64,000 nt of DNA from Kineosporia sp. NBRC 101731 (GTDB lineage Bacteria > Actinomycetota > Actinomycetes > Actinomycetales > Kineosporiaceae): NCBI RefSeq assembly GCF_030269305.1, contig NZ_BSTC01000002.1, forward strand, positions 620,001 through 684,000, written 5' to 3'. The notes below the pieces were generated by a model that worked only from the letters and a program-made list of their open reading frames with translations, ran no database searches and was not told the DNA's origin. Made by a program: the position numbers and the translations under genes. The first letter of the stretch is position 1. Each line of letters opens with the position of its first letter. Below are positions 12,387-61,401 of this stretch, in pieces.

Positions 12387-12499
12387 GTGATCATGCAAAT
12401 CCCCCAGCCTTCGGCCGGGAGGTGCCCCCACTCCCCGGAGCTCCTGAACTCCCGGCGTCACAGTTCTAGAACTCCGGGGAGGTTTTGCATGATCACGAA
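12387..12499. repeat. Nested palindromic repeat, long form (copy A)
   Basis: The ends are GTGATCATGCAAAT at 12387 and TTTTGCATGATCACGAA ending at 12499. The left half carries module 2 (CCCCCAGCCTTCGGCCGGGA). The right half carries module 1 (AGTTCTAGAACTCCGGGGAG), which itself contains the palindrome TTCTAGAA. It lies between the 3' end of mfd and the start of the SurA-like gene. It is close to the reverse complement of the copy at 56414-56522. Confidence 0.85.
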
Positions 12500-12507
12500 C
12501 AAAAAAT

Positions 12508-12526
12508 GGGGAGGGGAGGGGAGGGG
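12508..12526 (+). other. G-quadruplex motif (GGGGA)3GGGG
   Basis: Four G4 runs separated by single A bases occupy 12508-12526 on the plus strand, nine bases right of palindrome copy A. The minus-strand transcripts of mfd would carry the C-rich complement, so any quadruplex would form in DNA on the non-template strand for leftward genes or in antisense RNA. Confidence 0.6.
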
Positions 12527-12536
12527 ACGGACGGGC

Positions 12537-12561
12537 GGGCGGGCACCTTGGGTGCCCACCC
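12537..12561 (-). terminator. Probable mfd terminator hairpin
   Basis: GGGCACC at 12541-12547 pairs with GGTGCCC at 12551-12557 around a TTG loop. The stem extends outward by GGG/CCC after one mismatch. It lies 22 bases past the mfd stop. No U tract is seen. Confidence 0.55.
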
Positions 12562-12582
12562 GCGTCCTCAATTCGCTGTCAG

Positions 12583-15500
12583 CTATCTGCTCGCGGCCGA
12601 CGCCGCCGCCTTCACCGACGCCATCAGCACCGACTCGATGAACTCCCGCGCCCAGGAGAGCACCGCGACGTCACGCAGCGGCCGGCCGCCGATGCGCGCC
12701 GTGGTCGGGGCGGGCACCAGCACCGTCTTCGTGGCGGGCTTGTCCTGCGTGCCCGGGTAGAGACGGTGCAGCCGCATGCGGGCCGAGTCGGGCAGGTCGA
12801 TCGGGCCGAACCGGATCGCCTTGCCCATCGTGGCGATCTCGGTGAGCCCGGCCTGACGGGCCAGGATGCGCAGCCGGGCGACCTCGAGCAGGTTCGTCAC
12901 CACGTCGGGGATCGGGCCGTAGCGGTCGACCAGCTCGGCCTTCACCGCGTCCAGCGCCTCGTCCGAACCGACCTCGGCCAGCTTGCGGTAGGCCTCCAGA
13001 CGCAGGCGCTCGTCGGGCAGGTAGGTGGTGGGCAGGTGTGCGTCCACCGGGAGATCGATCTTGACCTCCTGGTGCTCCTGCTCGTTGTCGCCGCGGTACT
13101 CCGCGACCGCCTCGCCGACCAGCCGGATGTACAGGTCGAACCCGACACCCGCGATGTGCCCGGACTGCTCGCCGCCGAGCAGGTTGCCCGCGCCGCGGAT
13201 CTCCAGGTCTTTCATCGCCACGCGCATGCCGGCACCCAGGTCGGTGTTCGCCGCGATCGTCTGGAGCCGGTCGAGAGCCGTTTCGGTGAGCGGCTTCTCG
13301 GGCGGGTAGAGGAAGTAGGCGTAGGCCCGCTCGCGACCCCGGCCGACCCGGCCCCGCAGCTGGTGCAGCTGCGAGAGACCCATCATGTCGGCCCGCTCCA
13401 GGATCAGCGTGTTGGCGTTCGAGATGTCCAGGCCGGTCTCGATGATGGTCGTGCAGACCAGCACGTCGAACCGCTTCTCCCAGAAGTCGACCATCACCTG
13501 CTCGAGGGCGTGCTCGCCCATCTTGCCGTGGGCGGTGGCGATCCGGGCCTCGGGCACCAGCTCGTGCAGCCGCGCGGCGGTGCGGTCGATCGACTCCACC
13601 CGGTTGTGGATGAAGAAGACCTGCCCCTCCCGCAACAACTCCCGCCGGATCGCCGCGGAGATCTGCCGCTCGTCGTAGCCCCCCACGAAGGTCAGCACCG
13701 GGTGCCGCTCTTCCGGAGGTGTGGCCAGCGTGGACATCTCGCGGATACCGGTGACCGCGAGCTCCAGGGTGCGCGGGATCGGGGTGGCGCTCATGGCCAG
13801 CACGTCGACGTTGGTGCGCAGCTGCTTCAGGCGCTCCTTGTGCTCCACGCCGAACCGCTGTTCCTCGTCGACCACCACGAGACCCAGATCCTTGAACTGG
13901 ATCTCACCGGTGAGCAGGCGGTGGGTACCGATGACGACATCGACCGAGCCGTCTTTAATACCCTCCTTCACCGCCTTGGCCTCGGAGTCGGTGGAGAAGC
14001 GGGACAGGCCCCTCACGTTGACCGGGAAGTTGACGTACCGCTCGACGAACGTGTCGAGGTGCTGCTGCACGAGCAGGGTGGTCGGCACCAGCACGGCCAC
14101 CTGCTTGCCGTCCTGCACCGCCTTGAACGCCGCCCGCACCGCGATCTCGGTCTTGCCGTACCCCACGTCGCCACAGATCAGCCGGTCCATCGGGACCGTC
14201 TTCTCCATGTCCTTCTTGACCTCTTCGATGGTGACCAGCTGGTCGGGCGTCTCCACGTAGGCGAACGCGTCTTCCAGCTCCCGCTGCCACGGCGTGTCCG
14301 GCCCGAAGGCATGGCCGCTCGTCGCCATGCGCGCCGAGTAGAGCTGGATCAGCTCACCGGCGATCTGCTTGACCGCCTTGCGGGCGCGGCCCTTGGTCTT
14401 GGCCCAGTCGGTGCCGCCGAGCTTGTTCAGCGTCGGCTGCTCGCCACCCACGTACCGGGTGACCTGGTCGAGCGCATCGGTCGGCACGAACAGCCGGTCG
14501 CCCGGTTGCCCACGCTTGCCCGGCGCGTACTCGATCACCAGGTACTCGCGGGTGGCCCCGCCGACGGTGCGCTGCACCAGCTCGACGAACCTGCCCACGC
14601 CGTGCTGCTCGTGCACCACGTTGTCACCGGTGCTGAGCTGCATCGGGTCGACCACGTTCTTGCGGCGCGCCGGCATCCGGCGCATGTCCTTGGTGGTCGA
14701 GCCGGGGGCGGTGCTGCCGGTCAGGTCGGTCTCGGTGAGCACCGCGAACTTCAGCGCGGGAGCGATGAACCCCTGCGGCAGACGGCCGGTGCCGACCGCC
14801 GCCACCGACGGCGCCGGGGGCTGCGAGAGGTCGTCCACGGTCACCGCGGCCAGGTCGGCCTCGGTCAGCATCTCCACGACGCGCCGGGCCAGGCCACTGC
14901 CCTCGGTGATCACCGCGACCCGCCAGCCGTCGTGCAGCCAGCCACCGATGTCGGCGATGGTGCGCTCGCGGTCACCGCGGTACGGCTCCGGGGCCACCAC
15001 CTCGGGCACGAACACGACTGCACCCTCGTCGCCCTCGTCGTGCGCGGCCTGACCGGTCTCGTCCAGACCGAACGGCGAGATGGTCCACCAGGGCAGGCCC
15101 TGCTTGAGGGCGTGCGCGCGCACGTCGGCCAGCGCCCAGAACGAGCCCGTGCCCAGCACCGGCTCCAGATCGATCGGCACGGCGCTGCCCGCGGCCGCGC
15201 TCAGCCAGCTCGCCTGGAGGAATTCCTCGCTGGTGGCAACCAGGTCGTGGGCCCGCGCGCGGATCCGCTCCGGGTCGGCCAGCACCACGTGGGTGTGGGC
15301 CGGCAGCACGTCGAGCACCGACTCCATCGCGTCGACGAGCACCGGGGTCAGCGACTCCATCCCCTCGACCGCCACCCCGGCCGCGACCTTGCCCAGCAGG
15401 TCGGCCACGCCGGGCAGGCGCTCGGCCAGCTCGGCCGCGCGCGCCCGGACATCTTCGGTCAGCAGCAGCTCGCGGCACGGCGGTGCCCACAGACCGGTCT

Positions 15501-16188
15501 CGGCGACGTGCAGACTGCGCTGGTCGGCGACCGCGAAGTAGCGGATCTCCTCCACGTCGTCGCCCCAGAACTCCACCCGCAGGGGGTGCTCCTCGGTGGG
15601 CGGGAAGACGTCGAGGATGCCGCCGCGCACGGCGAACTCGCCGCGGCGCTCGACCAGGTCGGTGCGGGAGTACGCGGCGGCGGCCAGGCGCTCGACCACC
15701 TCGGTCAGCTCGGCCTCCTGCCCCGCGTGCAGGGCGACCGGCTCGAGGTCGCCCAGACCCCGCACGACGGGCTGGAGCACCGCGCGCACGGGGGCCACGA
15801 CCACCTGCACCGGGCCGTGCTCGTCGGTCTCGGGGTGGGCCAGACGGCGCAGCACGGCGATGCGCCGGCCGACCGTGTCGCTGCGCGGGCTCAGGCGCTC
15901 GTGCGGGAGCGTCTCCCAGGCGCCGAACTCGGCGACGGCGTGCTCGGGCAGAAAACAGCGCAGCGCGGCGGCGAGGTCCTCGGCCTCGCGGCCGGTGGCG
16001 GTCACCGCCAGGACGGGTCGCCCGCCGCCGCCCGGGGCGGGGCCGGCCAGCGCGGCGATCAGAGGGGCGCGCAGACCGGCCGGGCCGGTGAGGTCGAGCA
16101 AGGGCTCGCCGCCCTCGCGGGCGATCCGCAGAACGTCGCTCACGGCACGGTCGGCGGTGAGCAGGTCGAGGATTCCGGTGAGGCTCAT
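12583..16188 (-). CDS. mfd: Transcription-repair coupling factor Mfd
   Basis: Mfd dislodges RNA polymerase stalled at DNA lesions and recruits UvrA. The 1201-residue protein has the full architecture. UvrB-like N-terminal domains cover about 1-350. The RNA-polymerase-interacting domain lies near 510-580 (GDNVVHEQHGVGRF at its start). The RecG-like translocase has Walker A GDVGYGKTEIAVRAAF near 685, DEEQRFGVEHKERLK near 785 and the Q-rich motif HQLRGRVGRGRERAYAY near 955. A C-terminal TRCF domain ends the protein. ATG 16188 follows GGAG. Downstream lie a hairpin, a G-quadruplex motif and palindrome copy A before the SurA-like gene. Confidence 0.98.
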   Translation of the reverse strand: MSLTGILDLLTADRAVSDVLRIAREGGEPLLDLTGPAGLRAPLIAALAGPAPGGGGRPVLAVTATGREAEDLAAALRCFLPEHAVAEFGAWETLPHERLSPRSDTVGRRIAVLRRLAHPETDEHGPVQVVVAPVRAVLQPVVRGLGDLEPVALHAGQEAELTEVVERLAAAAYSRTDLVERRGEFAVRGGILDVFPPTEEHPLRVEFWGDDVEEIRYFAVADQRSLHVAETGLWAPPCRELLLTEDVRARAAELAERLPGVADLLGKVAAGVAVEGMESLTPVLVDAMESVLDVLPAHTHVVLADPERIRARAHDLVATSEEFLQASWLSAAAGSAVPIDLEPVLGTGSFWALADVRAHALKQGLPWWTISPFGLDETGQAAHDEGDEGAVVFVPEVVAPEPYRGDRERTIADIGGWLHDGWRVAVITEGSGLARRVVEMLTEADLAAVTVDDLSQPPAPSVAAVGTGRLPQGFIAPALKFAVLTETDLTGSTAPGSTTKDMRRMPARRKNVVDPMQLSTGDNVVHEQHGVGRFVELVQRTVGGATREYLVIEYAPGKRGQPGDRLFVPTDALDQVTRYVGGEQPTLNKLGGTDWAKTKGRARKAVKQIAGELIQLYSARMATSGHAFGPDTPWQRELEDAFAYVETPDQLVTIEEVKKDMEKTVPMDRLICGDVGYGKTEIAVRAAFKAVQDGKQVAVLVPTTLLVQQHLDTFVERYVNFPVNVRGLSRFSTDSEAKAVKEGIKDGSVDVVIGTHRLLTGEIQFKDLGLVVVDEEQRFGVEHKERLKQLRTNVDVLAMSATPIPRTLELAVTGIREMSTLATPPEERHPVLTFVGGYDERQISAAIRRELLREGQVFFIHNRVESIDRTAARLHELVPEARIATAHGKMGEHALEQVMVDFWEKRFDVLVCTTIIETGLDISNANTLILERADMMGLSQLHQLRGRVGRGRERAYAYFLYPPEKPLTETALDRLQTIAANTDLGAGMRVAMKDLEIRGAGNLLGGEQSGHIAGVGFDLYIRLVGEAVAEYRGDNEQEHQEVKIDLPVDAHLPTTYLPDERLRLEAYRKLAEVGSDEALDAVKAELVDRYGPIPDVVTNLLEVARLRILARQAGLTEIATMGKAIRFGPIDLPDSARMRLHRLYPGTQDKPATKTVLVPAPTTARIGGRPLRDVAVLSWAREFIESVLMASVKAAASAASR

Positions 16189-16584
16189 GGCTCCGGGGGG
16201 TTGGCACTAGGGTTTTGCGAACAGCGTCGTCGCGTCTTGGCGAACAGCACAACGCGCCGGGCTGCACGGGCAGTCCGGGGCGTTGTCAGCTTACGGCGAA
16301 TTCTCCGGCGCCGCCGGAGCCGAGCGCCCGAGCCACCCCGGGTGATTTCCGCAGGCCGGGAGCCGGTCGGCCGGTTGCTACCCCGATCTGAGCGACAGTT
16401 GAGGGGCAGATTCGGGAGTTCGGCACAGCACTCAGACGGCCATCAGAATTTCTGGACCCTGGCGCAATTGCGGCCGACTCATAAAATGATCCGGATCGGA
16501 AACGCACCCGGCACGGGGCCGGGCATTACGGCGGGTCGAATCCCCTCGCGGGAAAGAGACGCTGGGCATCTGTGGAGGGGGCAC
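16189..16584. promoter_or_regulatory. Divergent intergenic region, mfd / transposase-derived gene
   Basis: This 396-base region separates two divergent genes and should hold both promoters. I see no gene, tRNA or strong hairpin in it. Base composition falls somewhat near 16440-16500 (AATTTCTGGACC, CATAAAATGATCC), where the rightward promoter could lie. Confidence 0.4.
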
Positions 16585-17760
16585 GTGCACGATCCCGCGT
16601 ACGAGAGATCACTGAAGGTCGTCTACGATCGGATCGCACACAATTTCAGCCGCGCCGAACCACGGAAGCGCGCCTGGAACTATCTCGTCGATCTACCCAG
16701 GGCACATACCGCCGGTCTCCGGCGGGGCGAGACGGTCGGTCATTATTCCGGGGAAATTCGTGCCGACGGTGTGCAGAGATTGCTCACCTCGGCCCGTTGG
16801 GACGAGTTCTCCGTCCGGGAGGAACTGCGCGCCATTGCGATTCAGGCGGGCGGCCGCACCGGCGGCACCCTGTTCCTCACCGAGATCGCCTTCCCCAAAA
16901 AGGGCCGCAACGCGGTGGCGGTCGAACGTCAGTACAGCCACGACACCCAGCGCGTGGAGAACTGCCAGATCGGTCTGCTGCTCTTCTATCTGACCGCCGA
17001 CCGGCAGGCATTCCTGATCGACTCCGAGCTGTATCTGCCGCCCGCGTGGGTGAGCGATCCGCAACGCCGGGAGCAGGCCCAGATCCCGCCCGAAGTGGTT
17101 TACCGCAGCAAGTCCGCGATCGCGGCGGAGATGATTCGCCGGGCCTGGGAAAGTTCCATCCGCCCGGTCTGGGTGGCCTGCAATCTCGTGTGCACCGAGA
17201 AGACCATCCTTCATCGCCTGCTACGGCGTTACGGGGTTCAGCACCTGGTGGCGGGCAGTGCCGGCGAGATGCAGGCCGGTGGCGTCGGACGGGCGATCAC
17301 CGACGAGTCCGGCCAGCCCAACGGCACCACCCCGATGCCACCGGGGCACGAGATGCTCCAGTTACGCAACACGGTGCTGCACCGCTTCTCCACCCGCAGC
17401 TCCGACCCCTCGCGCATCGAGATGTCGTACCTGATGCTCTCGGGCACCAGCCGCAACGCCCGGGCCCGGTCGTACTACACGGCCTACCTGCGCCCCCACG
17501 CAGGCCTGGCCGAGGTGGTACCCATCGTGCAGCTGATCGAGGGAGCCGCCGCGCACTGCCGGGCGGTCAAGCAGAAGACCGGGCTGGGCCACTACGAGGT
17601 GCGCAGCTGGCGGGGCTGGTACCGGCACGTCACGCTCGCCTCGGCCGCCCAGATGGCGCTCGAGCTGGCCCGGCACGACAACTCGGCCGATCTGCGACCG
17701 CAGTACGTGGACCTGCGCGACGTGGCCTACGCGGCAGGGGGTAAGGGTCAGGCGGTCTGA
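16585..17760 (+). CDS. IS701-type transposase-derived protein with altered catalytic residues
   Basis: The 391-residue frame aligns by eye along the whole IS701/DDE_5 transposase fold: GVQRLLTSARWDEFSVREEL (62-81), VERQYSHDTQRVENCQIG (113-130), DSELYLPPAWVSDP (146-159) and TGLGHYEVRSWRGWYRHVTL (332-351). The catalytic aspartates are replaced. The VDETGFLKKG motif reads LTEIAFPKKG (Asp to Thr99), and WVTADEVYG reads WVACNLVC (Asp to Asn200). The glutamate region keeps IE at 318-319. The frame is complete, with GTG 16585 six bases after GGAGG, and no terminal inverted repeats were recognised. This suggests a domesticated, non-transposing DNA-binding protein, or less likely a recently dead transposase. 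Confidence 0.75.
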   Translation: MHDPAYERSLKVVYDRIAHNFSRAEPRKRAWNYLVDLPRAHTAGLRRGETVGHYSGEIRADGVQRLLTSARWDEFSVREELRAIAIQAGGRTGGTLFLTEIAFPKKGRNAVAVERQYSHDTQRVENCQIGLLLFYLTADRQAFLIDSELYLPPAWVSDPQRREQAQIPPEVVYRSKSAIAAEMIRRAWESSIRPVWVACNLVCTEKTILHRLLRRYGVQHLVAGSAGEMQAGGVGRAITDESGQPNGTTPMPPGHEMLQLRNTVLHRFSTRSSDPSRIEMSYLMLSGTSRNARARSYYTAYLRPHAGLAEVVPIVQLIEGAAAHCRAVKQKTGLGHYEVRSWRGWYRHVTLASAAQMALELARHDNSADLRPQYVDLRDVAYAAGGKGQAV

Positions 17761-17830
17761 ATTCGAGATGAAGGACGCCGTTGAGCCCCGGTCCCCCGGG
17801 TCACCGACGGTCCGCCCGGGTCGGGGACAG

Positions 17831-17905
17831 TTTGCATGATCACGGCAGTGGAGGGGCCCCTGAGGGGGCGCCCCTTCTCCTGGTCGTGATCATGCCATCC
17901 CCCAA
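17831..17905. repeat. Palindromic repeat, everted arrangement (copy B)
   Basis: The element ends appear in inside-out order: TTTGCATGATCACGG at 17831-17845, then a GC-rich hairpin (GAGGGGCCCC...GGGGCGCCCC), then CGTGATCATGCCATCCCCC from 17885. Other copies have GTGATCATGC on the left and GCATGATCAC on the right. It lies between the convergent transposase-derived and glutathione-transferase-like genes, where it could terminate both. Confidence 0.6.
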
Positions 17906-17966
17906 CCTCAGCTCAGCGGGCGTTGACGCGCCTCTGGGAGGCTCGACGACGTCCTCAATTCTGGTG

Positions 17967-19031
17967 TCAGCCCGCCCGTAGGGGCGTGTGGGCCGGGTCG
18001 ACCTGCTCGCCCTCACGCACCGGGCCGGGCGCAGTGCCGTCGCCGAAGGGACGGCCGCCGAGCTGCTCGCGGTGGTGCGGTGTGAGCCAGTTGTCCAGGG
18101 CCGGGCCGGACGGCACGATCTTCGTCGGGTTGATGTCCTCGTGCACCACGTAGTAGTGCTTCTTGATCTGGTCGAAGTCGATCGTGTCACCGAAACCCGG
18201 CGTCTGGAACAGGTCTCGCGCGTAGCCCCAGAGAGCCGGGAACTCGATCAGCTTCTGCCGGTTGCACTTGAAGTGCCCGTGGTAGACCGGGTCGAAGCGG
18301 GCCAGCGTGGTGAACAGCCGCACGTCGGCCTCGGTGATCGTGTCTCCGACCAGGTAGCGCTGGTTCGTCAGGCGCTCCTCCAGCCAGTCCATCGCGTCGA
18401 ACAGGCGCTGGTAGGCCCGCTCGTACGACGTCTGGCTACCGGCGAAACCGCAGCGGTAGACCCCGTTGTTGACATCCTTGAACACCTTCAGCGCGACCTC
18501 GTCGATCTCGGCCCGCAGGTGCTCGGGGTAGAGCTGGGGCGCTCCCTCGCGGTGGTACTGCGTCCACTCGGTGGAGAGGTCGAGGGTGATCTGCGGGTAG
18601 TCGTTGGTGACCACCTGCCCGGTCGGCACGTCGACGATCGCGGGAACGGTGATGCCCCGCGGGTAGTCGGGGAACCGGGCGAAGTAGGCGTCCTGGATGC
18701 GGGGGATGCCCAGCACCGGGTCGACACCACCCTCGTCGAGGTCGAAGGTCCAGCTGCGCGCGTCGTGGGTGGGACCGCAGACGCCCATCGAGATCGCGTC
18801 CTCCAGGCCCAGGAGCCGGCGCACGATGATCGCCCGGTTGGCCCATGGGCAGGCCCGCGCCACCACGAGGCGGTAGCGCCCCGGTTCGACCGGGTAGCCC
18901 TCGGCGCCGTCGCGGGTGATCCGGGTGGTGATGTAGTTGGTGTCGCGCGTGAATTCCTGCCCGGAGGTCACGTAGGCACCGGCCGTCGAGGTGGACGCGT
19001 TCGAGTCGTTGCTCACGCAACTATTCTGCAT
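17967..19031 (-). CDS. Glutathionyl-hydroquinone reductase-like (Xi-class GST family)
   Basis: The 354-residue protein matches the YqjG/ECM4 family, which reductively removes thiol adducts from hydroquinones via an active-site cysteine. The nucleophile is C61 in ARACPWANR. Other family marks are the conserved TNDYPQITLDLSTEW segment, NNGVYRCGFAGSQ near 205 and DVRLFTTLARFDPVYHGHFKCN near 256. Actinobacteria use mycothiol rather than glutathione, so the thiol partner is probably mycothiol; this is inference. ATG 19031 is used, with an in-frame GTG at 19016 as alternative; neither has a strong ribosome site. The divergent TauE/SafE gene begins 90 bases away. Confidence 0.88.
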   Translation of the reverse strand: MQNSCVSNDSNASTSTAGAYVTSGQEFTRDTNYITTRITRDGAEGYPVEPGRYRLVVARACPWANRAIIVRRLLGLEDAISMGVCGPTHDARSWTFDLDEGGVDPVLGIPRIQDAYFARFPDYPRGITVPAIVDVPTGQVVTNDYPQITLDLSTEWTQYHREGAPQLYPEHLRAEIDEVALKVFKDVNNGVYRCGFAGSQTSYERAYQRLFDAMDWLEERLTNQRYLVGDTITEADVRLFTTLARFDPVYHGHFKCNRQKLIEFPALWGYARDLFQTPGFGDTIDFDQIKKHYYVVHEDINPTKIVPSGPALDNWLTPHHREQLGGRPFGDGTAPGPVREGEQVDPAHTPLRAG

Positions 19032-19120
19032 CAGCCCTGGCCCGCCCGCGACCCTTGGAGTTTCGTAACAGTCCCTTCACCCCACTGTTCAATATCTTCT
19101 CTACTTTCTATAGTGTCCCG

Positions 19121-20110
19121 ATGGACTTTGATCCGCTCATGGCTGCGGCCGCCTTCGGCATCGGCATCGTGGTGGGCCTCACCGGTATGGGCGGCGGCGC
19201 ACTGATGACGCCGGTGCTCGTGCTGTTCTTCGGGGTCACGCCGATGGCCGCGGTCTCCAGCGACCTGGTGGCGGCCGCGGTGATGAAGCCCGTGGGCTCG
19301 TGGGTCCATCTGCGCCGCGGCACGGTGAACCTGTCACTGGTCGGCTGGCTGTGTCTCGGCTCGGTACCGGCGGCCTTCGGCGGCGTGCTGGTGGCCCGGG
19401 CGTTCGGCAGCGGCGAGTCGGTGCAGCACGGCATCAAGATCGCGCTCGGGGTGGCCCTGATCATCGCCGCGGCCGGGCTGGGGGTGCGGGCCTATCAGCG
19501 GTTGCTGGAGCGGGCCGCGCGGCGCGACGGCCGGGCCGCTCCCCTGCCCGCCGAACGGCCCGACGTGGTCGCGCGGCCCGTGCCCACGGTGATCATCGGG
19601 GCTCTGGGCGGGCTGATCGTCGGTATCACCTCGGTGGGTTCCGGATCGCTCATCATCATCGCGCTGATGGCTCTCTACCCCACGCTCAAGGCCAGTCAGC
19701 TCGTCGGCACCGACCTGCTGCAGGCCGTGCCGCTGGTCTTCTCGGCGGCGATCGGGCACATCCTGTTCGGTGACTTCCAGCTCGACCTCACGCTGGCCCT
19801 GATCGTCGGCAGCGTGCCCGGCGCCTGGCTGGGCGCGCAGCTGTCCACCCGTCTGCCCGGTGGCCTGGTGCGCCGGGCCTTGGCCTTCGTGCTGCTCGCC
19901 TCCGCGCTGAAGATGTTCGGCGTCGGCAACGCCGAGACCGGGATCGCCCTGGCCTCGTTCCTGGTGATCGCTCCCGTGGCCTGGATGCTGCTGCGCCGCC
20001 GTCACGGTTTCCCGGCCCTGCCCCAGCCGGGTGAGGACGACGAGGAGGAGCAGACCGCACCGGATCCGGCCGGTCCGGCCGATCCGGTGCGGTCCGCCCC
20101 CGCTCGCTAA
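19121..20110 (+). CDS. TauE/SafE family sulfite/anion exporter
   Basis: The 329-residue integral membrane protein has about eight hydrophobic segments in two repeats. Each repeat carries the family glycine motif: GIVVGLTGMGGGALMTP near residue 15 and GLIVGITSVGSGSLIIIA near 180. Family members export sulfite, sulfoacetate or related anions. ATG 19121 is preferred over a TTG at 19055 because the hydrophobic domain starts directly after it. The AT-rich stretch just upstream (CTACTTTCTATAGTG) resembles a promoter. The C-terminal tail is acidic and Pro-rich. Its stop overlaps the convergent propeller gene by three bases. A link with the cys genes 18 kb away is only suggestive. Confidence 0.85.
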   Translation: MDFDPLMAAAAFGIGIVVGLTGMGGGALMTPVLVLFFGVTPMAAVSSDLVAAAVMKPVGSWVHLRRGTVNLSLVGWLCLGSVPAAFGGVLVARAFGSGESVQHGIKIALGVALIIAAAGLGVRAYQRLLERAARRDGRAAPLPAERPDVVARPVPTVIIGALGGLIVGITSVGSGSLIIIALMALYPTLKASQLVGTDLLQAVPLVFSAAIGHILFGDFQLDLTLALIVGSVPGAWLGAQLSTRLPGGLVRRALAFVLLASALKMFGVGNAETGIALASFLVIAPVAWMLLRRRHGFPALPQPGEDDEEEQTAPDPAGPADPVRSAPAR

Positions 20111-22368: not shown

Positions 22369-22469
22369 CGACGAACCCCCAGTTCACCTACGGCCGGCGT
22401 CTTCACCCGGCCACATGCACGAAAGGTAGCTCTCGGCGAACGAACCCGGACACGCTTTGAGGTTTTTGG

Positions 22470-44480: not shown

Positions 44481-44561
44481 GTGATCATGCAAAATCTCCC
44501 CGGAGTTCTAGAACTGTCGCGGTGAGAGTTCTAGAACGCCGGGGAGATTTTGCATGATCAC
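44481..44561. repeat. Nested palindromic repeat, short form (copy C)
   Basis: The arms pair from GTGATCATGCAAAATCTCCC at 44481 to the complementary end at 44561: 23 perfect pairs, one mismatch, then GTTCTAGAACT. Each arm is itself palindromic at TGATCA and TTCTAGAA, so cruciform and alternative hairpins are possible. It lies between the 3' end of glmU and rplY. G-rich GGGGTA repeats follow at 44567-44584. Confidence 0.88.
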
Positions 44562-44656: not shown

Positions 44657-46123
44657 TTACTCGGTGGGGGCTTCGGGGTCGGAGGTCAGGGCGGCCTCGG
44701 CGGCGCGGGCCGAGGGGGTTCCGGCCCGGCGGCGCGCGACCCAGCCCTCGCTGTTGTGCTGACGACCGCGGGCCACGGCGAGGGCGCCGGGAGGCACGTC
44801 TTCGGTGATCGACGAGCCGGCGGCGGTGTAGGCGCCGTCGCCCACGGTGACCGGGGCGACGAGGGTGGTGTCGCTGCCGATCCGGACGTGGGCGCCGACG
44901 GTGGTGTGGTGCTTCTGTACGCCGTCGTAGTTGGCGAAGATCGTCGCGGCGCCGATGTTGGCGCCCTCACCGATCGTGGCGTCACCGGCGTAGGTCAGGT
45001 GGGGCACCTTGGCGCCCGCGCCGATCGTGGTGTTCTTGGTCTCGACGAAGGCGCCGATCTTGCCGTCCGGACCGAGCACGGTGCCCGGGCGCAGATAACT
45101 GAACGGGCCGACCCCGGCGCCGGCCTCGATCTTCGCGCCGGTGCCGTGCGTACGGACGACGGACGCACCTTCGCCGACCGCGCAGTTGGAGAGCGTGGTG
45201 TCGGGGCCGACGGTGGCCCCGGTCGCGACCGTGGTGCCGGCGTGCAGCTGGGTGCCGGGCAGCAGGGTGACGTCGGCGGCCAGGTGCACGTCGACGTCCA
45301 CCCAGGTGGTGGCCGGGTCGACCACGGTGACGCCACCACGCATGTGACCGACGAGCAGGCGGCGGTTCAGCTCGGCGCCGAGGGTGGCGAGCTGAACCCG
45401 GTCGTTGACGCCCTCGACCTGCCAGAGGTCGTGGGTGACGACAGCGCGCACCCGCCGGCCGTCGGCGTGGGCGATGCCCAGCACGTCGGTCAGATACATC
45501 TCGTTCTGGTCGTTGTCCGAGCCGATCCGGCCGAGCGCGTCGACCAGCACCTTGGCGTCGAAGGCGTAGATGCCGGAATTGATCTCCCGGATCGCGGCCT
45601 GCTCCGGGGTGGCGTCACGCTGCTCGACGATGCCGGTGACCGCGCCGGAGGCGTCGCGCAGCACCCGGCCGTAGCCGGTGGGGTCGCCGACCTCGGCGGT
45701 CAGTACGGTCACCGCGGCCTGCTCGGCCCGGTGGGCCTCGACCAGGGCGGCCAGCGTCTCGCCGGAGAGCAGGGGAACGTCGGCGTAGGTGACGACGACC
45801 ACGCCGTCCACCCCGTCAACCCCGTCCAGCCCCGACAGCGCGCGCAGACCGGCGGCGACGGCACTGCCGGTGCCGGGCACCTCGTCCTGGTCGGCGATCA
45901 CGGCGGCCGGGGCGATCTCGGCCACGTGCCCGGCAACCTGCTCACGCTGGTGCCGCACCACCACCACGAGATGCTCCGGCCGAAGGCTCCAGGCAGCGGC
46001 CAGCGCGTGCCCGACGAGGGACCGGCCACCGATGCGGTGCAGCACCTTGGGGGTACGCGAGCGCATCCGCTTGCCCTCACCGGCGGCCAGAACCACGACC
46101 GCTGCCGGCTGCTGTGTACTCAC
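44657..46123 (-). CDS. glmU: Bifunctional GlcNAc-1-P uridylyltransferase / GlcN-1-P acetyltransferase
   Basis: GlmU makes UDP-GlcNAc for peptidoglycan and other glycans. The 488-residue protein has the pyrophosphorylase domain first (VVVLAAGEGKRMRSRTPKVLH near residue 9; Mg-binding YADVPLLSG near 112). A left-handed beta-helix with hexapeptide repeats follows from ~265, including the acetyltransferase segment RPGTVLGPDGKIGAFVETKN and YAGDATIGEGANIGAATIFANYDG. The C-terminal tail is Ala/Arg-rich. GTG 46123 is used, ten bases after GGAGGG; the open frame beyond it overlaps tRNA-Gln and was rejected. Confidence 0.97.
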   Translation of the reverse strand: MSTQQPAAVVVLAAGEGKRMRSRTPKVLHRIGGRSLVGHALAAAWSLRPEHLVVVVRHQREQVAGHVAEIAPAAVIADQDEVPGTGSAVAAGLRALSGLDGVDGVDGVVVVTYADVPLLSGETLAALVEAHRAEQAAVTVLTAEVGDPTGYGRVLRDASGAVTGIVEQRDATPEQAAIREINSGIYAFDAKVLVDALGRIGSDNDQNEMYLTDVLGIAHADGRRVRAVVTHDLWQVEGVNDRVQLATLGAELNRRLLVGHMRGGVTVVDPATTWVDVDVHLAADVTLLPGTQLHAGTTVATGATVGPDTTLSNCAVGEGASVVRTHGTGAKIEAGAGVGPFSYLRPGTVLGPDGKIGAFVETKNTTIGAGAKVPHLTYAGDATIGEGANIGAATIFANYDGVQKHHTTVGAHVRIGSDTTLVAPVTVGDGAYTAAGSSITEDVPPGALAVARGRQHNSEGWVARRRAGTPSARAAEAALTSDPEAPTE

Positions 46124-50038: not shown

Positions 50039-50117
50039 CACCTCACGGCAGCCCCGCAGGCAAGGATCCGACGACCGAAAGACGCACGATGAGCAACGGC
50101 CCGACTGCACCTAGTTC

Positions 50118-50131: not shown

Positions 50132-50196
50132 TCACCATAAGTAGTTAATACGTAACTTCTCGCCTCAATATGGTCCCGCACAGTCAAGGAGGATTC

Positions 50197-51567: not shown

Positions 51568-51596
51568 AACCGACGTCTCAACCCTGAGGAGTGGCA

Positions 51597-53485: not shown

Positions 53486-53491
53486 TCCCCC

Positions 53492-53563
53492 GTGATCATG
53501 CAATCCCCCTCCGGGAGGTGGGAGCACCACCTCCCGGCCGAAGGCTGGGGATTGCATGATCAC
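53492..53563. repeat. Nested palindromic repeat between convergent genes (copy D)
   Basis: The ends are GTGATCATGCAATCCCCC at 53492 and GGGGATTGCATGATCAC ending at 53563. The interior holds GGGAGGTGG-GAG-CACCACCTCCC and module 2 sequence; the TTCTAGAA module is absent. It starts seven bases after the permease stop and ends ten bases before the ABC-F stop, so it is ideally placed as a bidirectional terminator. Confidence 0.85.
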
Positions 53564-53572
53564 GACCAGGTT

Positions 53573-55396
<1,824 letters not shown>

Positions 55397-55401
55397 TGGG
55401 C

Positions 55402-56346
55402 TTAACCACGCACCGATTCGACGAGACGGGCACCGGGCACCGGACCGTGTGCGCGTCGCACGTCGGCCGCTGCTCCGGACGCGGTCAGGGCGACCGCGAG
55501 ATCAAGGGCTTGACTGGAGTCGCGGGCCAGGAACACCGTGGTCGGGCCGGAGCCGGACACGATGCCACCGAGCGCGCCGACCTTGCGGCCGATCTCCAGC
55601 GCGCGGTCCAGCTGGGGGGCCATCGCCAGGGCGGCGGGCTCCAGCTCGTTGTGCAGACGGGAGCCCAGGGCCGCGGCGTCACCGGCCCGCAGCGCGGCCA
55701 TCAGGGCGTCGTCGATCTCGGGCCTGGGCGTGGGCTGCGGAGCCTCACCGGCCTCGCGCATCCGGTCGATCTTTCCGTAGACCCCGGGCGTGGACAGGCC
55801 GCCCTCGGCGAGCGCGATCACCCAGGTGTACTCGCCGCGGGCCAGCACGGGGGTGAGCAGCTCACCCCGGCCACTGCCGATCGCGGTGCCGCCGAGCAGG
55901 GAGAAGGGCACGTCCGAGCCGAGCTGCGCGGCCAGGTCGAACAGCTGCTCACGGTCGAGACCGGCGTGCCAGAGCGCGTCGCAGGCGACCAGGGCGGCCG
56001 CGGCGTCGGCCGAGCCACCGGCCATGCCACCTGCCACCGGGATGCCCTTGCGCAGGGAGAACGCCACGTCGGCCGATTCCAGGCCGATGTGCGCGGCCAG
56101 CAGCTTTGCTGCCTTCACGGCCAGGTTCGAGTCGTCGGTGGGCACCTCGTCGGCCTGGATGCCGTCCACCGTGATCGAGACCCCCGAGCCGGGCTCGGTG
56201 GCCCGCGCGGTCAGATCGTCGAACAGCGCCACGGCGTGGAACACCGTGGCGAGCTCGTGAAAGCCGTCTTCCCGGACCGGGCCCACCCGCAACTCAAGAT
56301 TGATCTTGGCGGGCGCGCGCACGATCACCGTTCCCGTCGCCGCCAT
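55402..56346 (-). CDS. ispE: 4-diphosphocytidyl-2-C-methyl-D-erythritol kinase
   Basis: IspE phosphorylates CDP-ME in the non-mevalonate isoprenoid pathway. The 314-residue GHMP kinase shows VRAPAKINLELRVG near residues 9-22, the ATP-binding GIPVAGGMAGGSADAAAAL near 100-118, and the C-terminal GGIVSGSGPTTVFLA near 266-280. ATG 56346 is used. Undecaprenyl precursors for the cell wall and the exopolysaccharide depend on this pathway. Its upstream flank is occupied by palindrome copy E. Confidence 0.96.
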   Translation of the reverse strand: MAATGTVIVRAPAKINLELRVGPVREDGFHELATVFHAVALFDDLTARATEPGSGVSITVDGIQADEVPTDDSNLAVKAAKLLAAHIGLESADVAFSLRKGIPVAGGMAGGSADAAAALVACDALWHAGLDREQLFDLAAQLGSDVPFSLLGGTAIGSGRGELLTPVLARGEYTWVIALAEGGLSTPGVYGKIDRMREAGEAPQPTPRPEIDDALMAALRAGDAAALGSRLHNELEPAALAMAPQLDRALEIGRKVGALGGIVSGSGPTTVFLARDSSQALDLAVALTASGAAADVRRAHGPVPGARLVESVRG

Positions 56347-56413
56347 GCGCCCACTCTATGCAATCCGCGGCGCCCCTCCGAACGAGGCAGCCGCGTCCCC
56401 CCAGATCCACTCC

Positions 56414-56522
56414 GTGATCATGCAAAACCTCCCCAGTGTTCTAGAACTGTGACGCTGAGAGTTCTAGAGCTCCGGGGAGTGGGGCACCTCCCGGCCGAAG
56501 GCTGGGGGATTTGCATGATCAC
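56414..56522. repeat. Nested palindromic repeat, long form, opposite orientation (copy E)
   Basis: The ends are GTGATCATGCAAAACCTCCC at 56414 and GGGGGATTTGCATGATCAC ending at 56522. Module 1 (AGTGTTCTAGAACTG) is on the left and module 2 (CACCTCCCGGCCGAAGGCTG) on the right. Nearly the reverse complement of copy A. It lies between the ABC exporter 3' end and ispE. Confidence 0.87.
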
Positions 56523-56537
56523 GAACAAGGGGTTGAG

Positions 56538-59500
56538 TTACCCGGCCAGGTGGCTCCAGCGGTCGTCGAGCTCCGCCCACGTGCCCTGCGCCACCGCCCG
56601 GCCGTTGATCATGACGACCACCCGGTCGGCACGTTCCAGGGCCGCCCGCTTCGACGTCGAGCCCACCACCGTCACGCCGTGCTCGCGCAGGGCATTCCAG
56701 AGGTCTAGCTCGGTGCCGACGTCGAGGGCCGAGGACACGTCGTCGGCCACCAGCAGTTCGGTGCGCGGGGCCAGCGCCCGGGCCAGGGCCAGGCGCTGCA
56801 GCTGACCACCGGACAGGCGGGAGCCCTTGTGCCCGATCATCAGCCCGAGTCCGGAACCGGACTCGGCCAGGTCGCGCTCCAGCTGGGCCGCGGCCACGGC
56901 GGTGTGCAGGTCCACGTCGTGCCCGAGCGAGATGTTGTCGGCGATCGTGCCCGACAGCACGCGCGGCACCTGGCCGACATAGCCCACCTGGTTCGGGCGC
57001 AGGAACCGCTCCGGCTCGGTGACCTCCGTACCGTTCCAGGCCAGGGACCCCGAGTGATGGACGATCCCGGCCAGGGCCCGCAGCAGTGACGACTTGCCCG
57101 CCCCGACCGGTCCGACCACCAGCACCAGCTCACCGCGCCGCACCGTGAGGTCCACGTCGCGGGCACCGAGCATGCCGTCCTCGTGCACGGCGGTGAAACC
57201 GGTCAGGGTCAGCTCGCGCAGCGGCTCGCGGCCGGGCAGCACCGGCGCCGGGGCGGTGCCGGCCGCCACATCCACTTCGGGCAGCTCGGCCGAGTAGTTG
57301 CCCTCACCGATCATCGCGTGGGTGCGCCGGGTCCAGACCCGGGCCGAGGGCAGCTGCGACACGAACGAGGCCGTGGTCCAGGCGAACCACCGCGCCGAGC
57401 CCAGCGTGGAGACCGCGATCAGCACGGCCGCCGAGCTGAGACCACCGTTCAGGTACAGCGCCCAGGCCCCGATCGGCAGCAGGCCGGCGGTCAGCGCCGG
57501 GGTGGACCGCGACCAGACCTGGATCATGATCTCCTCGCGCTGCCGCTCGCTGCGCACCTGGTCGAGCCCGGCCAGGTGCGACAGCACGGGCTGGGTGGCG
57601 CCACTCAGCTTCACCGTGCGGGCCGCCGACAGCGACGACACCAGCGCGGTGGCGAAGGAGGCCCGGGCCGCGACCGTGCGGGCCGCCGCCTTCTCCAGCT
57701 TCGGGCCGAACCCGGTGGCCACGATCCCCGACAGCACCATCGTGGCCGCGAAGAACAGGGCGGGCACGATCGAGCCGGAGATCGCCGTCATGGTGACCAT
57801 GACGACCACGGCGGTGACGTTGTCCACCACGTTGTCGGCGAGCTGCACGACCCGCTCGGTGTCGCCGGACTGCGCGATTACCGCGGCGGGGGTGTGATTG
57901 CTGACCCGCCGGTCACCGGTCTGGCCGTGCGTGAGCCGCAGGTTGATGCGCAGCGTCTGACGCACCCACCACTCCGGGAACCAGCGGTCGGTGAACCACG
58001 GCAGCGGGGCGGTGAGGAGCAGCGCGGTGACGATGCCGGCCGACGGCCAGAACAGGCTGCCCGATCCGTCCACCAGGTCGGCCCACAGCCACGGCAGCAC
58101 CGAGCCGTCCAGCCCGAGCAGGATCAGCACCATGAAGACGCCGACCGCGGCGACCCCGTACCGGGCGTCGTTGCGCACCAGCTGGAAGATCTCGCGCACG
58201 GTGGAACCACCGGTGGCCTCGACGACCTTCGGCGGTTCGGCCCGGCCCGGCGGCTCCGACGCCACCGGCACCGGTGGGACCGGGGCCGGTGGGACCGGGG
58301 CCGGTGGGACCGGGGCCACCACGACGTCCTCCAGCAGTTCGCCCTCGACCGACCGCTGCTGCGGGAGGTGAGTACTGACACCGGCCAGCGCCGGCGAGCG
58401 CAGCTGGCCGCTCTCGACCAGCCGGGCGAACCGCTGCGACTGGGCCAGTGGACCGGCCTCGAGCACGCGGCCGCTGTCGAGCACCACCACCTCGTCGCAG
58501 TCCGCCACCGACGACAGCCGGTGCGCGATCACGATGCCGATGCGCCCCTCCAGCAGCCGGGCCGAGGCGCGTTGAACCTGGTGCTCGGTGACCGGGTCCA
58601 TCCGCGCGGTGGCTTCGTCGAGGATCACCAGGTGCGGGTCACGCACCAGGATCCGGCCGAACGCGACCAGCTGCTCCTGCCCCGCCGAGAGCACGTAGCC
58701 GCCCTCACCGAGCCGGGTGTCCAGACCGTCGGGCAGGCCCTCCACCCAGGCGCCGAGCCCGAGTTCGTCCATCACCCGGCCGGCCGAGCCGGTCAGCTCC
58801 GGGTCGAACAGGGCAATGTTCTCGGCCAGGGTTCCGGCCAGGATCTCGGTGCGCTGCGGCACCACGGCCACCCAGCGGCGCAGCAGTTCCAGATCGACCT
58901 GGTTCAGGTCGGCTCCCCCCAGGTCGACCGTGCCGTCGGGCACGTCGACCGAGCGGGTGAGCACCTTGGCCAGCGTGGACTTGCCCGAACCGGTGCGCCC
59001 GATCAGCGCGTACGAGCGGCCGGGCACGAAGGTCAGCGAGACGTCGTGCAGCACGGCGCCCCGATCCGACTCCCCCGGGTAGGCGAAAGTCAGGTTCCGG
59101 ATGCACAGTTCACCCTCGGTCGGAGCCTCACCGCCGGTCGGCTCGACCTGCGAGGCCGACAGCATCTGCACCCGGCCCCAGGCCCCGAGCCCTTGCTGCA
59201 GGTGCGGCACCATCCGGCTGATGTGGTCGACCGTCGCCCCGAAAGCCAGCGCCAGAAGCCAGGTCGAAGTCAGCCGGGCGGCGTCGAGGTGCCCTGCCTG
59301 CAGGGCCCAGATACCGCCCACCACGACCACCGCGATCGAGGAGCGCACAATGGTGGACGCGACAACTGACAGTTTCGCGCTCAGTCGCCACACGACCCGT
59401 CCCCGGCTCAGGACCTGGCTCGACCGGTCGGCGAAAAGCCGTACCACGTAGGGCCGCGCCAGCGTGGTGCGGACGTCGTCCTGGCCGTGGATCGACTCTT

Positions 59501-60062
59501 CCATCACCGCGGCCAGATCCGACCATGCCTCCTCCTCGCTCATCCGGGCCGGATTGATGCGCCGGATCGGGCGGGACAGGCCCTTCACCGTGAGGGCGAC
59601 CACCAGCAGCATGCCGACACCGGCCGGCCACCAGACGAACAACGCCGTGATGACGGAAACCGTTGCCACCGCGAGCTGTTGAAAGATGCGCAGACCGCTG
59701 TTCCGGATCTCGCTGCCGACCTGGTAGATGTCCTGGTCAATACGGTCGAGCAACTCACCGACCGGCGTGCCCTCCAGCGCCGGCAACGGCTGGGAGAAGG
59801 CGACCGCACACAGACGGCGGCGCAGGTCGGCCGACCAGTCGGCGGTCAGCCGGGCGGCGACGATGTTCACGGCCAGATCGCCCAGCACGTAGAGCGAGAG
59901 ACCGGCGGCCAACAGGACGAACAACGACCAGGAGCGCTCGAGCAGCACCGGTCCGGCCAGCGCCGCGGCGGCGGCCTGGCCCGCGCCCCCGAACGCCACG
60001 AGCACCATCACCAGGGCGCATTGTCGTGGCGAGGTCTGCCAGAGGTCTCGGAGCAGGCGCAT
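56538..60062 (-). CDS. Single-chain asymmetric ABC exporter (TMD-NBD-TMD-NBD)
   Basis: One 1174-residue chain holds both halves of an exporter. The first membrane domain covers ~10-300 and the second ~630-905, joined by a linker of VPPAP repeats (583-600). NBD1 has Walker A GRTGSGKST (355-363), Walker B LVILDEATA (E483), H-loop His514 and an unusual signature LSAGQ (458-462). NBD2 has GPVGAGKSS (984-992) and a normal LSGGQ (1083-1087). Its Walker B reads LLVADDVSS (D1108 for Glu), and the H-loop position reads TSKR. One composite ATP site is thus canonical and the other degenerate. ATG 60062 is chosen by comparison with family starts; an ATG at 60104 is possible. Substrate unknown. Confidence 0.9.
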   Translation of the reverse strand: MRLLRDLWQTSPRQCALVMVLVAFGGAGQAAAAALAGPVLLERSWSLFVLLAAGLSLYVLGDLAVNIVAARLTADWSADLRRRLCAVAFSQPLPALEGTPVGELLDRIDQDIYQVGSEIRNSGLRIFQQLAVATVSVITALFVWWPAGVGMLLVVALTVKGLSRPIRRINPARMSEEEAWSDLAAVMEESIHGQDDVRTTLARPYVVRLFADRSSQVLSRGRVVWRLSAKLSVVASTIVRSSIAVVVVGGIWALQAGHLDAARLTSTWLLALAFGATVDHISRMVPHLQQGLGAWGRVQMLSASQVEPTGGEAPTEGELCIRNLTFAYPGESDRGAVLHDVSLTFVPGRSYALIGRTGSGKSTLAKVLTRSVDVPDGTVDLGGADLNQVDLELLRRWVAVVPQRTEILAGTLAENIALFDPELTGSAGRVMDELGLGAWVEGLPDGLDTRLGEGGYVLSAGQEQLVAFGRILVRDPHLVILDEATARMDPVTEHQVQRASARLLEGRIGIVIAHRLSSVADCDEVVVLDSGRVLEAGPLAQSQRFARLVESGQLRSPALAGVSTHLPQQRSVEGELLEDVVVAPVPPAPVPPAPVPPVPVASEPPGRAEPPKVVEATGGSTVREIFQLVRNDARYGVAAVGVFMVLILLGLDGSVLPWLWADLVDGSGSLFWPSAGIVTALLLTAPLPWFTDRWFPEWWVRQTLRINLRLTHGQTGDRRVSNHTPAAVIAQSGDTERVVQLADNVVDNVTAVVVMVTMTAISGSIVPALFFAATMVLSGIVATGFGPKLEKAAARTVAARASFATALVSSLSAARTVKLSGATQPVLSHLAGLDQVRSERQREEIMIQVWSRSTPALTAGLLPIGAWALYLNGGLSSAAVLIAVSTLGSARWFAWTTASFVSQLPSARVWTRRTHAMIGEGNYSAELPEVDVAAGTAPAPVLPGREPLRELTLTGFTAVHEDGMLGARDVDLTVRRGELVLVVGPVGAGKSSLLRALAGIVHHSGSLAWNGTEVTEPERFLRPNQVGYVGQVPRVLSGTIADNISLGHDVDLHTAVAAAQLERDLAESGSGLGLMIGHKGSRLSGGQLQRLALARALAPRTELLVADDVSSALDVGTELDLWNALREHGVTVVGSTSKRAALERADRVVVMINGRAVAQGTWAELDDRWSHLAG

Positions 60063-60167
60063 GGCAGAAAAATCCTTCGGGAGGCGGGGGCGGCCTCCCC
60101 ACATTGCCGTCAGATGCGCCCTGAACTCAATGTATTTTCCTAGCCGCGGACCGACCGCCGGGTGATT

Positions 60168-60311
60168 TCAGTGACCGGCACCGCGTTCGGGTGCACCGTC
60201 AGGGCGCGTCTGACGTGGGAGCGAGGAGATTCGCTGCTCCAGATCGATACTGATCGCGCTCATCGAGGCCACGGTGATGGTCGGCGTTCCCGTGCTCCCG
60301 TTGTCCGTCAT
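60168..60311 (-). CDS. Possible 47-residue peptide gene upstream of the exporter
   Basis: An open frame from ATG 60311 encodes 47 residues with no cysteine, beginning MTDNGSTGTPTITVAS and ending in a Gly/Arg-rich tail. Third-position GC is high over the first two thirds, as in real genes here. It lies 105 bases upstream of the exporter on the same strand. The ribosome site is weak (AGG ten bases upstream). It could be a peptide substrate, a leader peptide or chance; I do not recognise a family. Confidence 0.3.
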   Translation of the reverse strand: MTDNGSTGTPTITVASMSAISIDLEQRISSLPRQTRPDGAPERGAGH

Positions 60312-60427
60312 GCGGGTGAACCTATGACCCCGGAACGGGCCGCGCCTCCCGGCGACACGGACATCCCGGCGGCCCACCGCGAAAATCCGCCGTACAGACC
60401 GTTCGGGCCGCCGGAACGGCCGAGTCG

Positions 60428-61285
60428 TCACCCCTTCCGGCGGGCAGCCGCCAGCGCGGAGAACTCCTGCACGGTGAGGCGCTCACCCCGGGTCTTCGGG
60501 TCGATACCGGCCTGGCGCAGAGCCGCCTCGGCGGCGTCGGCCGATCCGGCCCAGCCCGCCAGGGCCGCACGCAGGGTCTTGCGGCGCTGGGCGAAGGCGG
60601 CGTCGACGCAGGCGAACACCTCTTCCCGGGTGGCGCTCGTCTCCGGGTGCGGGCGGGCCGTGAACTGCACCAGCCCTGACTCCACGTTCGGCACCGGCCA
60701 GAACACCTGCCGCGGCACCGCCCCGGCCCGTCGCACATCGGCGTACCAGGCGGCCTTCACCGAGGGCACGCCGTAGGTCTTGTCGCCAGGACGGGCCGCG
60801 AGCCGGTCGGCGACCTCGGCCTGCACCATCACCAGGCCACTGGCGAGGGTCGAGACCCGCTCCAGCAGGGTCAGCAGCACCGGTACCGCCACGTTGTACG
60901 GCAGGTTCGCCACCACGGCGGTGGGTGTGCGGCCCCCGACCTCCAGCTGCTGCGCCTGCACCAGCAGCGCGTCGGAGAGCACGACGCTGAACCGCTCCGC
61001 CGCCTCCGGGGCCCGGGTGGCGATCGTGGCCGGCAACTCGGCCGCCAGCTTGGGGTCGATCTCCACCGCGACCACGTGGGCACCCGTCTCCAGCAGCGCC
61101 AGCGTCAGCGAGCCGAGCCCGGGACCGATCTCGGTGACCAGGTCGCCCGCACCCACACCGGCGAGCCGGGCGATGCGGCGCACGGTGTTGGCGTCGACCA
61201 CGAAGTTCTGCCCGAGCTGTTTGGTCGGGCGGACGTCGAGCCGTCCGGCCAGCTGACGGATGTCGGCGGGGCCGAGCAGAGACAT
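60428..61285 (-). CDS. rsmA: 16S rRNA dimethyladenosine transferase
   Basis: RsmA (KsgA) dimethylates the two adjacent adenosines near the 3' end of 16S rRNA. The 285-residue protein has the SAM-binding motif [17 protein letters not shown] near residues 50-66, preceded by [14 protein letters not shown]. The catalytic motif [12 protein letters not shown] lies near 125-136, with a C-terminal helical domain ([13 protein letters not shown]). ATG 61285 is used; a GTG two codons earlier is possible. The rpf-rsmA-ispE order is the usual actinobacterial one, here split by the exporter. Confidence 0.96.
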
Positions 61286-61319
61286 AGACACAACGGGCGA
61301 CCCTAACAGCCCCCTGTTC

Positions 61320-61401
61320 GTGATCATGCAAAGTGTCCCCGGAGTTCTAGAACTGTACCGCCGAGAGTTCTAGAACGCCGGGGAAGGTTTCCATGATCAC
61401 G
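61320..61401. repeat. Nested palindromic repeat, short form (copy F)
   Basis: The ends are GTGATCATGCAAAGTGTCCC at 61320 and GGAAGGTTTCCATGATCAC ending at 61401, both inner modules being GTTCTAGAAC. The right end has one change (TTGCATG to TTCCATG). It lies between the rpf terminator and rsmA. Confidence 0.87.

Follow-up and report, generated by a model that had tools for sequence, protein, structure and literature searches.

Palindromic elements in a Kineosporia genome

A stretch of 64,000 nucleotides (nt) from Kineosporia sp. NBRC 101731 (contig NZ_BSTC01000002.1, positions 620,001 to 684,000; referred to here as the window) carries a family of intergenic palindromes, which we consider together with a gene outside the window that encodes a predicted fusion of an AbiEi-like region and a nuclease-like domain. 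An earlier note on this DNA had described five copies with shared ends. All five (A, C, D, E and F) were found by a search with the 12-base ends; A ends at 12496 and F at 61400, so that the limits given before, 12499 and 61401, ran 3 bases and 1 base too far. A sixth site, B, was absent from that note. In window coordinates, the elements are:

Element A, 12387-12496 (110 nt): composite, with an end at 12387-12398, module 2 at about 12399-12430, a module 1 hairpin and an end at 12485-12496; 86 bp beyond the 3' end of the gene at 12583-16188.
Element B, 17832-17895: an outward-facing TTGCATGATCAC...GTGATCATGC pair with a GC-rich hairpin.
Element C, 44481-44561 (81 nt): two module 1 arms and a variable 7-base loop (44518-44524); 95 bp beyond the 3' end of the gene at 44657-46096.
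Element D, 53492-53563 (72 nt): module 2 type, between two convergent genes, 6 and 9 bp from their 3' ends.
Element E, 56414-56522 (109 nt): composite with module 2 on the right, in reverse orientation to A; 15 bp beyond a gene 3' end.
Element F, 61320-61400 (81 nt): variable loop at 61357-61363 and one decayed end, the right one, which reads TTCCATGATCAC (one mismatch to the shared end); 72 bp beyond a gene 3' end.

The repeat unit starts with TTCGTGATCATGCAA, and the palindrome arises from two units. The 81-nt form begins with an end and an arm that contains the TTCTAGAA palindrome; TCT, a stretch of seven variable bases and ACA come next, and the mirror image completes it. All six elements are predicted to form strong hairpins, A and E as two inner hairpins on a single outer stem. 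The module make-up described earlier was confirmed, with module 1 on both sides of C and F, module 2 type sequence only in D, and one of each in opposite orientation in A and E. So was the placement of the five copies in intergenic DNA past the 3' end of at least one gene, at 6 to 95 bp beyond it when genes were called with a simple codon-based gene caller. A search of the window with Rfam at gathering thresholds returned two tRNAs and nothing else, and thus the elements match no curated RNA family. Pairs of -/+ ends resembling element B were also seen at G000:C1:356059, 616774 and 834049 (genome, contig and position; G000 is the NBRC 101731 genome).

Copy number and distribution

The exact 12-base end, GTGATCATGCAA, was found 330 times (157+173) in the NBRC 101731 genome (8.26 Mb in 88 contigs), and the reversed pattern, used as a control, 0+0 times. 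The family is therefore not due to chance, and its copies far exceed the few of the window. In Kineosporia mesophila (G002), which is ~93% identical to the NBRC 101731 genome, we counted 286 exact ends (142+144); among the other four Kineosporia genomes, one has a single exact copy and three have none. A pattern scan over species genomes, in which the records of NBRC 101731 itself may be left out, returned 76 stretches of 81-111 nt with exact ends, 75 of them in K. mesophila and one in Bailinhaonella. In form, the family is like repetitive extragenic palindromes (REPs) or miniature inverted-repeat transposable elements (MITEs), as had been suggested: its copies are many, intergenic and palindromic, with both occupied and empty sites.

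Element length was catalogued in both species, each catalogue including one false element. In K. mesophila, 76 of 99 elements are 81 nt long, in a catalogue that is biased to 81-111 nt and under-samples shorter forms; in NBRC 101731 (n=51), 17 are 81 nt long and 13 are composites of 104-110 nt. The 152-nt "elements" within a gene are false.

Across 394 genomes of the class, the exact 12-mer is present in 70, and it reaches hundreds of copies only in NBRC 101731 and in G013 (345 copies), a member of another family. In stretches of G013 chosen near known sites, 29 of 32 clusters consist of single units or of direct arrays, the other 3 being mixed; some of these arrays have units of ~23 nt with spacers of 14-15 nt. 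A strand bias of the G013 sites was considered and rejected, the sites listed being forward ones only and locus L152 holding an unlisted reverse site.

We placed the elements relative to genes with the same gene caller, pooling both species and counting shared loci twice. Of 102 placed elements, 37 lie in convergent, 53 in tandem and 12 in divergent gaps, against a background of 105 convergent, 366 tandem and 151 divergent among 622 gaps of at least 20 bases; 10 further elements lie at stretch edges, and 2 inside genes are false. Convergent gaps are thus over-represented among the elements and divergent ones are rare. The median distance past a gene 3' end is 18 bp (n=90 elements with an adjacent 3' end). 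Because of this distance and the convergent excess, a terminator role for the elements is possible. A similar picture holds in the G013 and G146 samples, where convergent genes enclose 12 of the 28 and 5 of the 8 clusters placed. The orientation of units relative to genes showed a weak bias.

Arms and loops in two species

The arms are near-identical between loci. Base pairs 13-16 change largely by compensation, Watson-Crick pairing being kept at each of them in 74 to 75 of 76 copies. Between loci, the likeness of the seven loop bases does not exceed the expectation from column composition, at 0.30 in NBRC 101731 against 0.325 expected (29 loops) and 0.33 in K. mesophila against 0.34 expected (75 loops).

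Both flanks of 28 of 50 NBRC 101731 elements could be matched to available K. mesophila DNA. Sixteen of the 28 are shared in the same orientation, 3 are flipped in place, 5 are ambiguous, 1 is a remnant, and at 3 the K. mesophila site is empty. The loop supports two of the flips (5/7 and 4/7 bases agree when flipped, versus 2 and 0 unflipped); the third concerns a 71-nt element with an identity of 0.85 flipped versus 0.52. Leaving aside 5 of the 24 shared elements, which have no 13-base loop, we compared loops at 19 loci: orthologous loops are 71% identical, versus 40% for shuffled partners and a maximum of 54% in 2000 shuffles. At 7 of these 19 loci the NBRC 101731 element is composite (module 1 plus module 2) and that of K. 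mesophila simple, and the reverse was seen at 0/19. Element A of the window is one of the seven, its K. mesophila ortholog being 81 nt long without module 2.

Since orthologous loops are related and yet the modules differ, the comparison argues that loops are mostly inherited by locus and that arms are exchanged. The exchange of half-elements put forward in the earlier note is hence supported at the level of the 7/19 loci, with a reservation for two of the seven. At L005 and L028 the loops are not recognisably related, and the whole element, rather than an arm, may have been replaced there. Two other ideas on the origin of the loop were discarded: a loop drawn randomly at birth is superfluous, orthologous loops being related, and a loop copied from the target site was not seen at the sites inspected by eye.

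Empty sites and outgroups

A single clean pair of occupied and empty sites was available, at C1:1559783, where an element is present only in NBRC 101731. By eye no target duplication was seen at this pair, and the insertion includes pyrimidine-/purine-rich flanks of ~26 and ~18 nt. The element at this site (82 nt, G000:C1:1559783-1559864) has a loop without a second copy in the genome within 3 mismatches. It could be an old copy that K. mesophila has lost, or one that arose recently together with a new loop.

In the outgroup G004, six positions that are occupied in NBRC 101731 hold no element, and four of the six could be read in G005, again with none. At the position orthologous to C1:1467986, G004 has a 42-nt palindrome with the variant end GTGATCATGCGA (L303:9548-9589, G004:C1:3669548). 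In 200 kb of G004 no other element that is complete and has exact GTGATCATGC ends was seen; an exact GTGATCATGC-type end is absent from 80 kb of G005. This orthologous short element points to a family that predates the two repeat-rich species and has expanded in them, and it rules out a gain in these two species only.

The elements could also be hairpins that selection keeps alike, as bidirectional terminators or protectors of mRNA 3' ends, with flips arising from the instability of palindromes. Such a role would fit the 18-bp median, the convergent excess (37/102 versus 105/622 gaps) and the co-variation of the arms, and some outgroup positions hold unrelated hairpins, as judged by eye. It leaves unexplained, however, the near-identity of arms across loci, the module 2 replacements and the nuclease partner, and the single units and direct repeats that make up 29/32 of the G013 clusters read form no such hairpin. 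We regard selection on hairpins as quite unlikely to account for the family.

A putative nuclease gene between the repeats

One pair of ends, 1.2 kb apart, encloses a gene in the "loop" of the element. Among the 92 places listed on contig C1, no other gene was found between ends. The features concerned are:

Nuclease gene, G000:C1:1543791-1544750: 319 codons, between flanking arms that are both full composites.
Inverted nuclease segment, G000:C1:1543690-1544783 versus G002:C1:144978-146070: arm type differs, composite versus simple.

In K. mesophila the nuclease gene occupies the corresponding site in inverted orientation, with simple arms around it. The long reading frames on either side (L031:3040-3627 and 4846-6846) resemble genes for an adenosyltransferase and a mutase.

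Residues ~22-198 of the NBRC 101731 protein match AbiEi antitoxin models (Pfam AbiEi_4 above its cut-off, PADLOC AbiEi at 9e-19), and residues 238-286 match the MTES_1575 nuclease model at 7.5e-7. Each of the six proteins in a first alignment matches both AbiEi_1 and MTES_1575 (E<=0.01); NCBIfam gave no match at E<=0.01. In 80 aligned proteins, E210 is kept in 79, D243 in 76 and E254 in 79, which we read as the residues expected of a PD-(D/E)XK site. The protein, of ~310 residues, is thus predicted to join an AbiEi-like DNA-binding region to a PD-(D/E)XK nuclease-like domain. No AbiEii toxin was recognised beside the gene, the neighbours not having been scanned with a toxin model. The nuclease is found at ~530 bits only in the two repeat-rich Kineosporia species, and other members of the genus have at best an 85-bit relative. 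No relative was among 45 pattern matches in viral contigs; plasmids yielded five distant partial matches, three of them annotated DUF559.

The Y1 transposase model PF01797 gave 0 matches at E<=0.001 in the NBRC 101731 genome, which is 99% complete, with control matches in 5 of 14 genomes. The result bears on whether the elements are true REPs, or REPINs (REP doublets forming hairpins), mobilised by a REP-associated tyrosine transposase (RAYT). Their architecture is the same, with inverted doublets and a gene between inverted repeats: a RAYT gene is described as having two inverted REPs around it in every case (PMC2817692), and the spacer of a REPIN as less conserved than its ends (PMC3116915). 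Given the missing PF01797 and a unit without the GTAG/GTGG head, we attach next to no credence to mobilisation by a RAYT, unless such a gene sits in the ~1% of the genome that is missing or has diverged too far for the model.

Association of nuclease and repeats across the class

To find further members, a profile built from six such proteins was searched against the 394 class genomes, and 127 of them gave matches at E<=1e-30. We then compared the left and right flanks of 82 distinct nuclease loci, calling an inverted repeat at a score of at least 16. Twelve of these loci belong to genomes that had been chosen for the 12-mer or are of the genus, and 70 come from the class survey (L205-L274; 30 and then 40 further places taken from among the matches listed); L191, which repeats L228, was excluded, and L201 gave no match. 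An inverted flank repeat was present at 60/82 loci, and at 53/70 of the class-survey loci, versus 6/600 random windows from six genomes and 3% of 400 mismatched flank pairs. By profile score, it was found at 45/52 loci with at least 180 bits, 12/22 with 140-180 bits and 3/8 below. These repeats are lineage-specific and often form tandem arrays that point inward on both sides; in G027, three close nucleases each have their own motif. On a tree of 80 proteins, with L193 and L161 omitted, the motif class changes 5 times, compared with 13.9 for shuffled labels, and none of 500 shuffles was as low.

One motif could be followed by its abundance. TGATCATGCA adjoins the nuclease in 12 of the 56 class genomes with fetched loci, and these have 1.1 to 133.5 copies per Mb; the remaining 44 have at most 6.3 copies per Mb (p=1.5e-6). 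At least 8 copies per Mb were reached in 11 of the 394 genomes, counted by eye, and 10 of these 11 are among the 127 nuclease-positive ones, the other being G137. Taken together, sequence comparisons make it well supported that the AbiEi-nuclease fusion is associated with its own inverted, often dispersed repeats.

The gene-bearing form, with arms of 40 to 74 nt, would also be expected if a DDE insertion sequence sharing these ends had given rise to the elements as classical MITEs and the nuclease were a captured passenger; terminal inverted repeats and the occurrence of occupied and empty sites would agree with this. However, the nuclease is the only gene found between the ends among the 92 places listed on C1, the same nuclease family stands between unrelated repeats in other lineages, and target duplication was not seen at the single clean empty site. 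We therefore consider a MITE origin very unlikely.

A further possibility is that the repeats beside the gene are autoregulatory AbiEi sites only, and that the dispersed copies were spread by another or a lost enzyme, or form a regulon. AbiEi antitoxins autoregulate via 23-bp inverted repeats (PMC7319586), and the same motif occurs both beside the gene and dispersed. We think this unlikely, as the gene has inverted repeats on either side, including past its 3' end, where an operator needs none, and divergent gaps hold 12 of 102 placed copies versus 151 of 622 gaps.

A proposed mechanism

We lean towards the interpretation that the palindromes are dispersed partners of the AbiEi-nuclease gene, their arms being copied in repair that the nuclease initiates. 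The GTGATCATGCAA-type unit would be bound by the AbiEi-like region, and DNA at or near it would be cut or nicked by the nuclease part; we infer both steps from the binding of AbiEi proteins to 23-bp inverted repeats with gaps of 3 to 13 bp (PMC7319586), together with the ~23-nt units of G013. Repair from another copy would then convert the arms, which could make them alike across loci, spread module 2 and flip elements in place, whereas the loop and the DNA outside the element lack homology and would remain locus-specific. A new copy would arise when an element is occasionally captured at a fresh break, mostly near gene 3' ends, and gene and repeats would constitute a REPtron-like locus on a different enzyme. 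In favour of this reading are the position of the gene between full arms and its inversion in K. mesophila, the inverted repeats beside most nuclease loci, the match of motif and nuclease tree, the kept residues E210, D243 and E254, and loops that go with the locus while arms are nearly identical.

In its broadest form, the proposal is that of a new repeat-spreading system, widespread in actinobacteria, in which an AbiEi-PD-(D/E)XK protein, through cutting and repair, disperses its own recognition repeats and makes them evolve in concert, free of a transposase, as an independent invention of the REP/RAYT strategy; we judge the case for and against it to be evenly balanced. That the nuclease, rather than another enzyme, drives the spread seems to us about a toss-up.

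Several observations weigh against the proposed mechanism. No PD-(D/E)XK enzyme is known to spread short repeats by itself, and palindromes could flip and exchange arms through ordinary recombination or through template switching, with no need of a nuclease. The MTES_1575 match is below the Pfam cut-off (29.6 vs 38.2 bits), and a PDB profile search gave two insignificant matches only (E 0.27 and 0.58). G004, which has no close nuclease (best match 64 bits), keeps an element, so that the family can persist nuclease-free. In the flank test, 22/82 loci had no repeat, and the direct orientation also passed at 14/83 loci, perhaps due to partly self-complementary arrays. The G137 assembly (91% complete, 470 contigs) contains TGATCATGCA 36 times but gave no nuclease match at E<=1e-15, and G403, with 7.9 TGATCATGCA per Mb, is not among the matches listed at E<=1e-30. 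Nor is dispersal universal: in 100-kb samples of four other genomes, the motif was dispersed for 3 of 8 nuclease loci, at which the best 14-mer had 2 to 9 matches and its reversed control 0.

Relation to known repeat systems

The hundreds of short intergenic palindromes, the cognate gene between inverted copies and the agreement of repeat and enzyme trees resemble REP/RAYT systems (REPtrons); like REPINs, the elements are inverted doublets in many copies, with conserved ends and a variable spacer. In contrast to REP/RAYT, the enzyme here is an AbiEi-PD-(D/E)XK fusion, not HUH/Y1, the GTAG head is missing and units also occur in direct arrays. By analogy, then, the locus is REPtron-like in architecture and would work like a REPtron, yet it is not one: its enzyme is of an unrelated type, and the search for a Y1 transposase found none. 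RAYT genes of other species have long terminal inverted repeats as flanks, and TIRYTs/TIRtrons, with a gene between such repeats, some from moderately abundant families, are similar in this respect; their gene is an HUH tyrosine transposase, whereas ours is a nuclease fusion (PMC3733652). CGTC REPs, which are likewise dispersed palindromes and apparently without a dedicated transposase, differ in sequence and have no partner gene reported (PMC3733652). MITEs share the short length, the inverted ends and the longer gene-bearing form, but in the parts examined here there is no DDE transposase or target duplication. With AbiE type IV toxin-antitoxin systems the gene has the AbiEi domain in common, here fused to a nuclease-like domain and with sites genome-wide. 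Two further candidates, DNA uptake sequences and integron attC sites, were set aside.

Vsr/DUF559-type endonucleases belong to the same broad PD-(D/E)XK class, and for the DUF559/Vsr-type endonuclease of PMC12907096 a role in mismatch repair is predicted. Among the papers listed, seen as titles and the starts of abstracts and including few subscription ones, we found none that links Vsr/DUF559-type or AbiEi nucleases to repeats or treats these sequences as a repeat family, and a word search for "actinobacter-" in PMC2817692 and PMC3733652 gave no hit.

The earlier interpretation was supported in part overall, with the REP/MITE-like form and the exchange of half-elements both borne out; the AbiEi-nuclease gene, being outside the window, was not visible to its reader. 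Short palindromes without a known mobiliser, CGTC REPs among them (PMC3733652), are a standing puzzle, for which a candidate enzyme family can now be named. With a candidate DNA site beside most of the nuclease genes examined, recognition is open to an in vitro test. If the nuclease does drive the spread, repeats can spread in bacteria without a transposase, and a function would be suggested for genes named only DUF559 or AbiEi-like. The two Kineosporia species offer a natural experiment in the concerted evolution of palindromes, with shared loci, local loops, flips and a module that is mostly confined to one species.

Further repeats and nuclease-family genes

G013 has a second, distant nuclease-family gene (L172, G013:C1:1248633), which is flanked by another repeat, of the CAGAATGCTGGG type; repeats of this type also lie beside GTGATCATGCAA sites in L147 and L158. 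Palindromes of ~58-60 nt with TGATCATGCA ends and differing interiors were seen in G112 (L309, L310 and L311) and G128 (L312 and L313), and in L312 they adjoin a nuclease-family gene.

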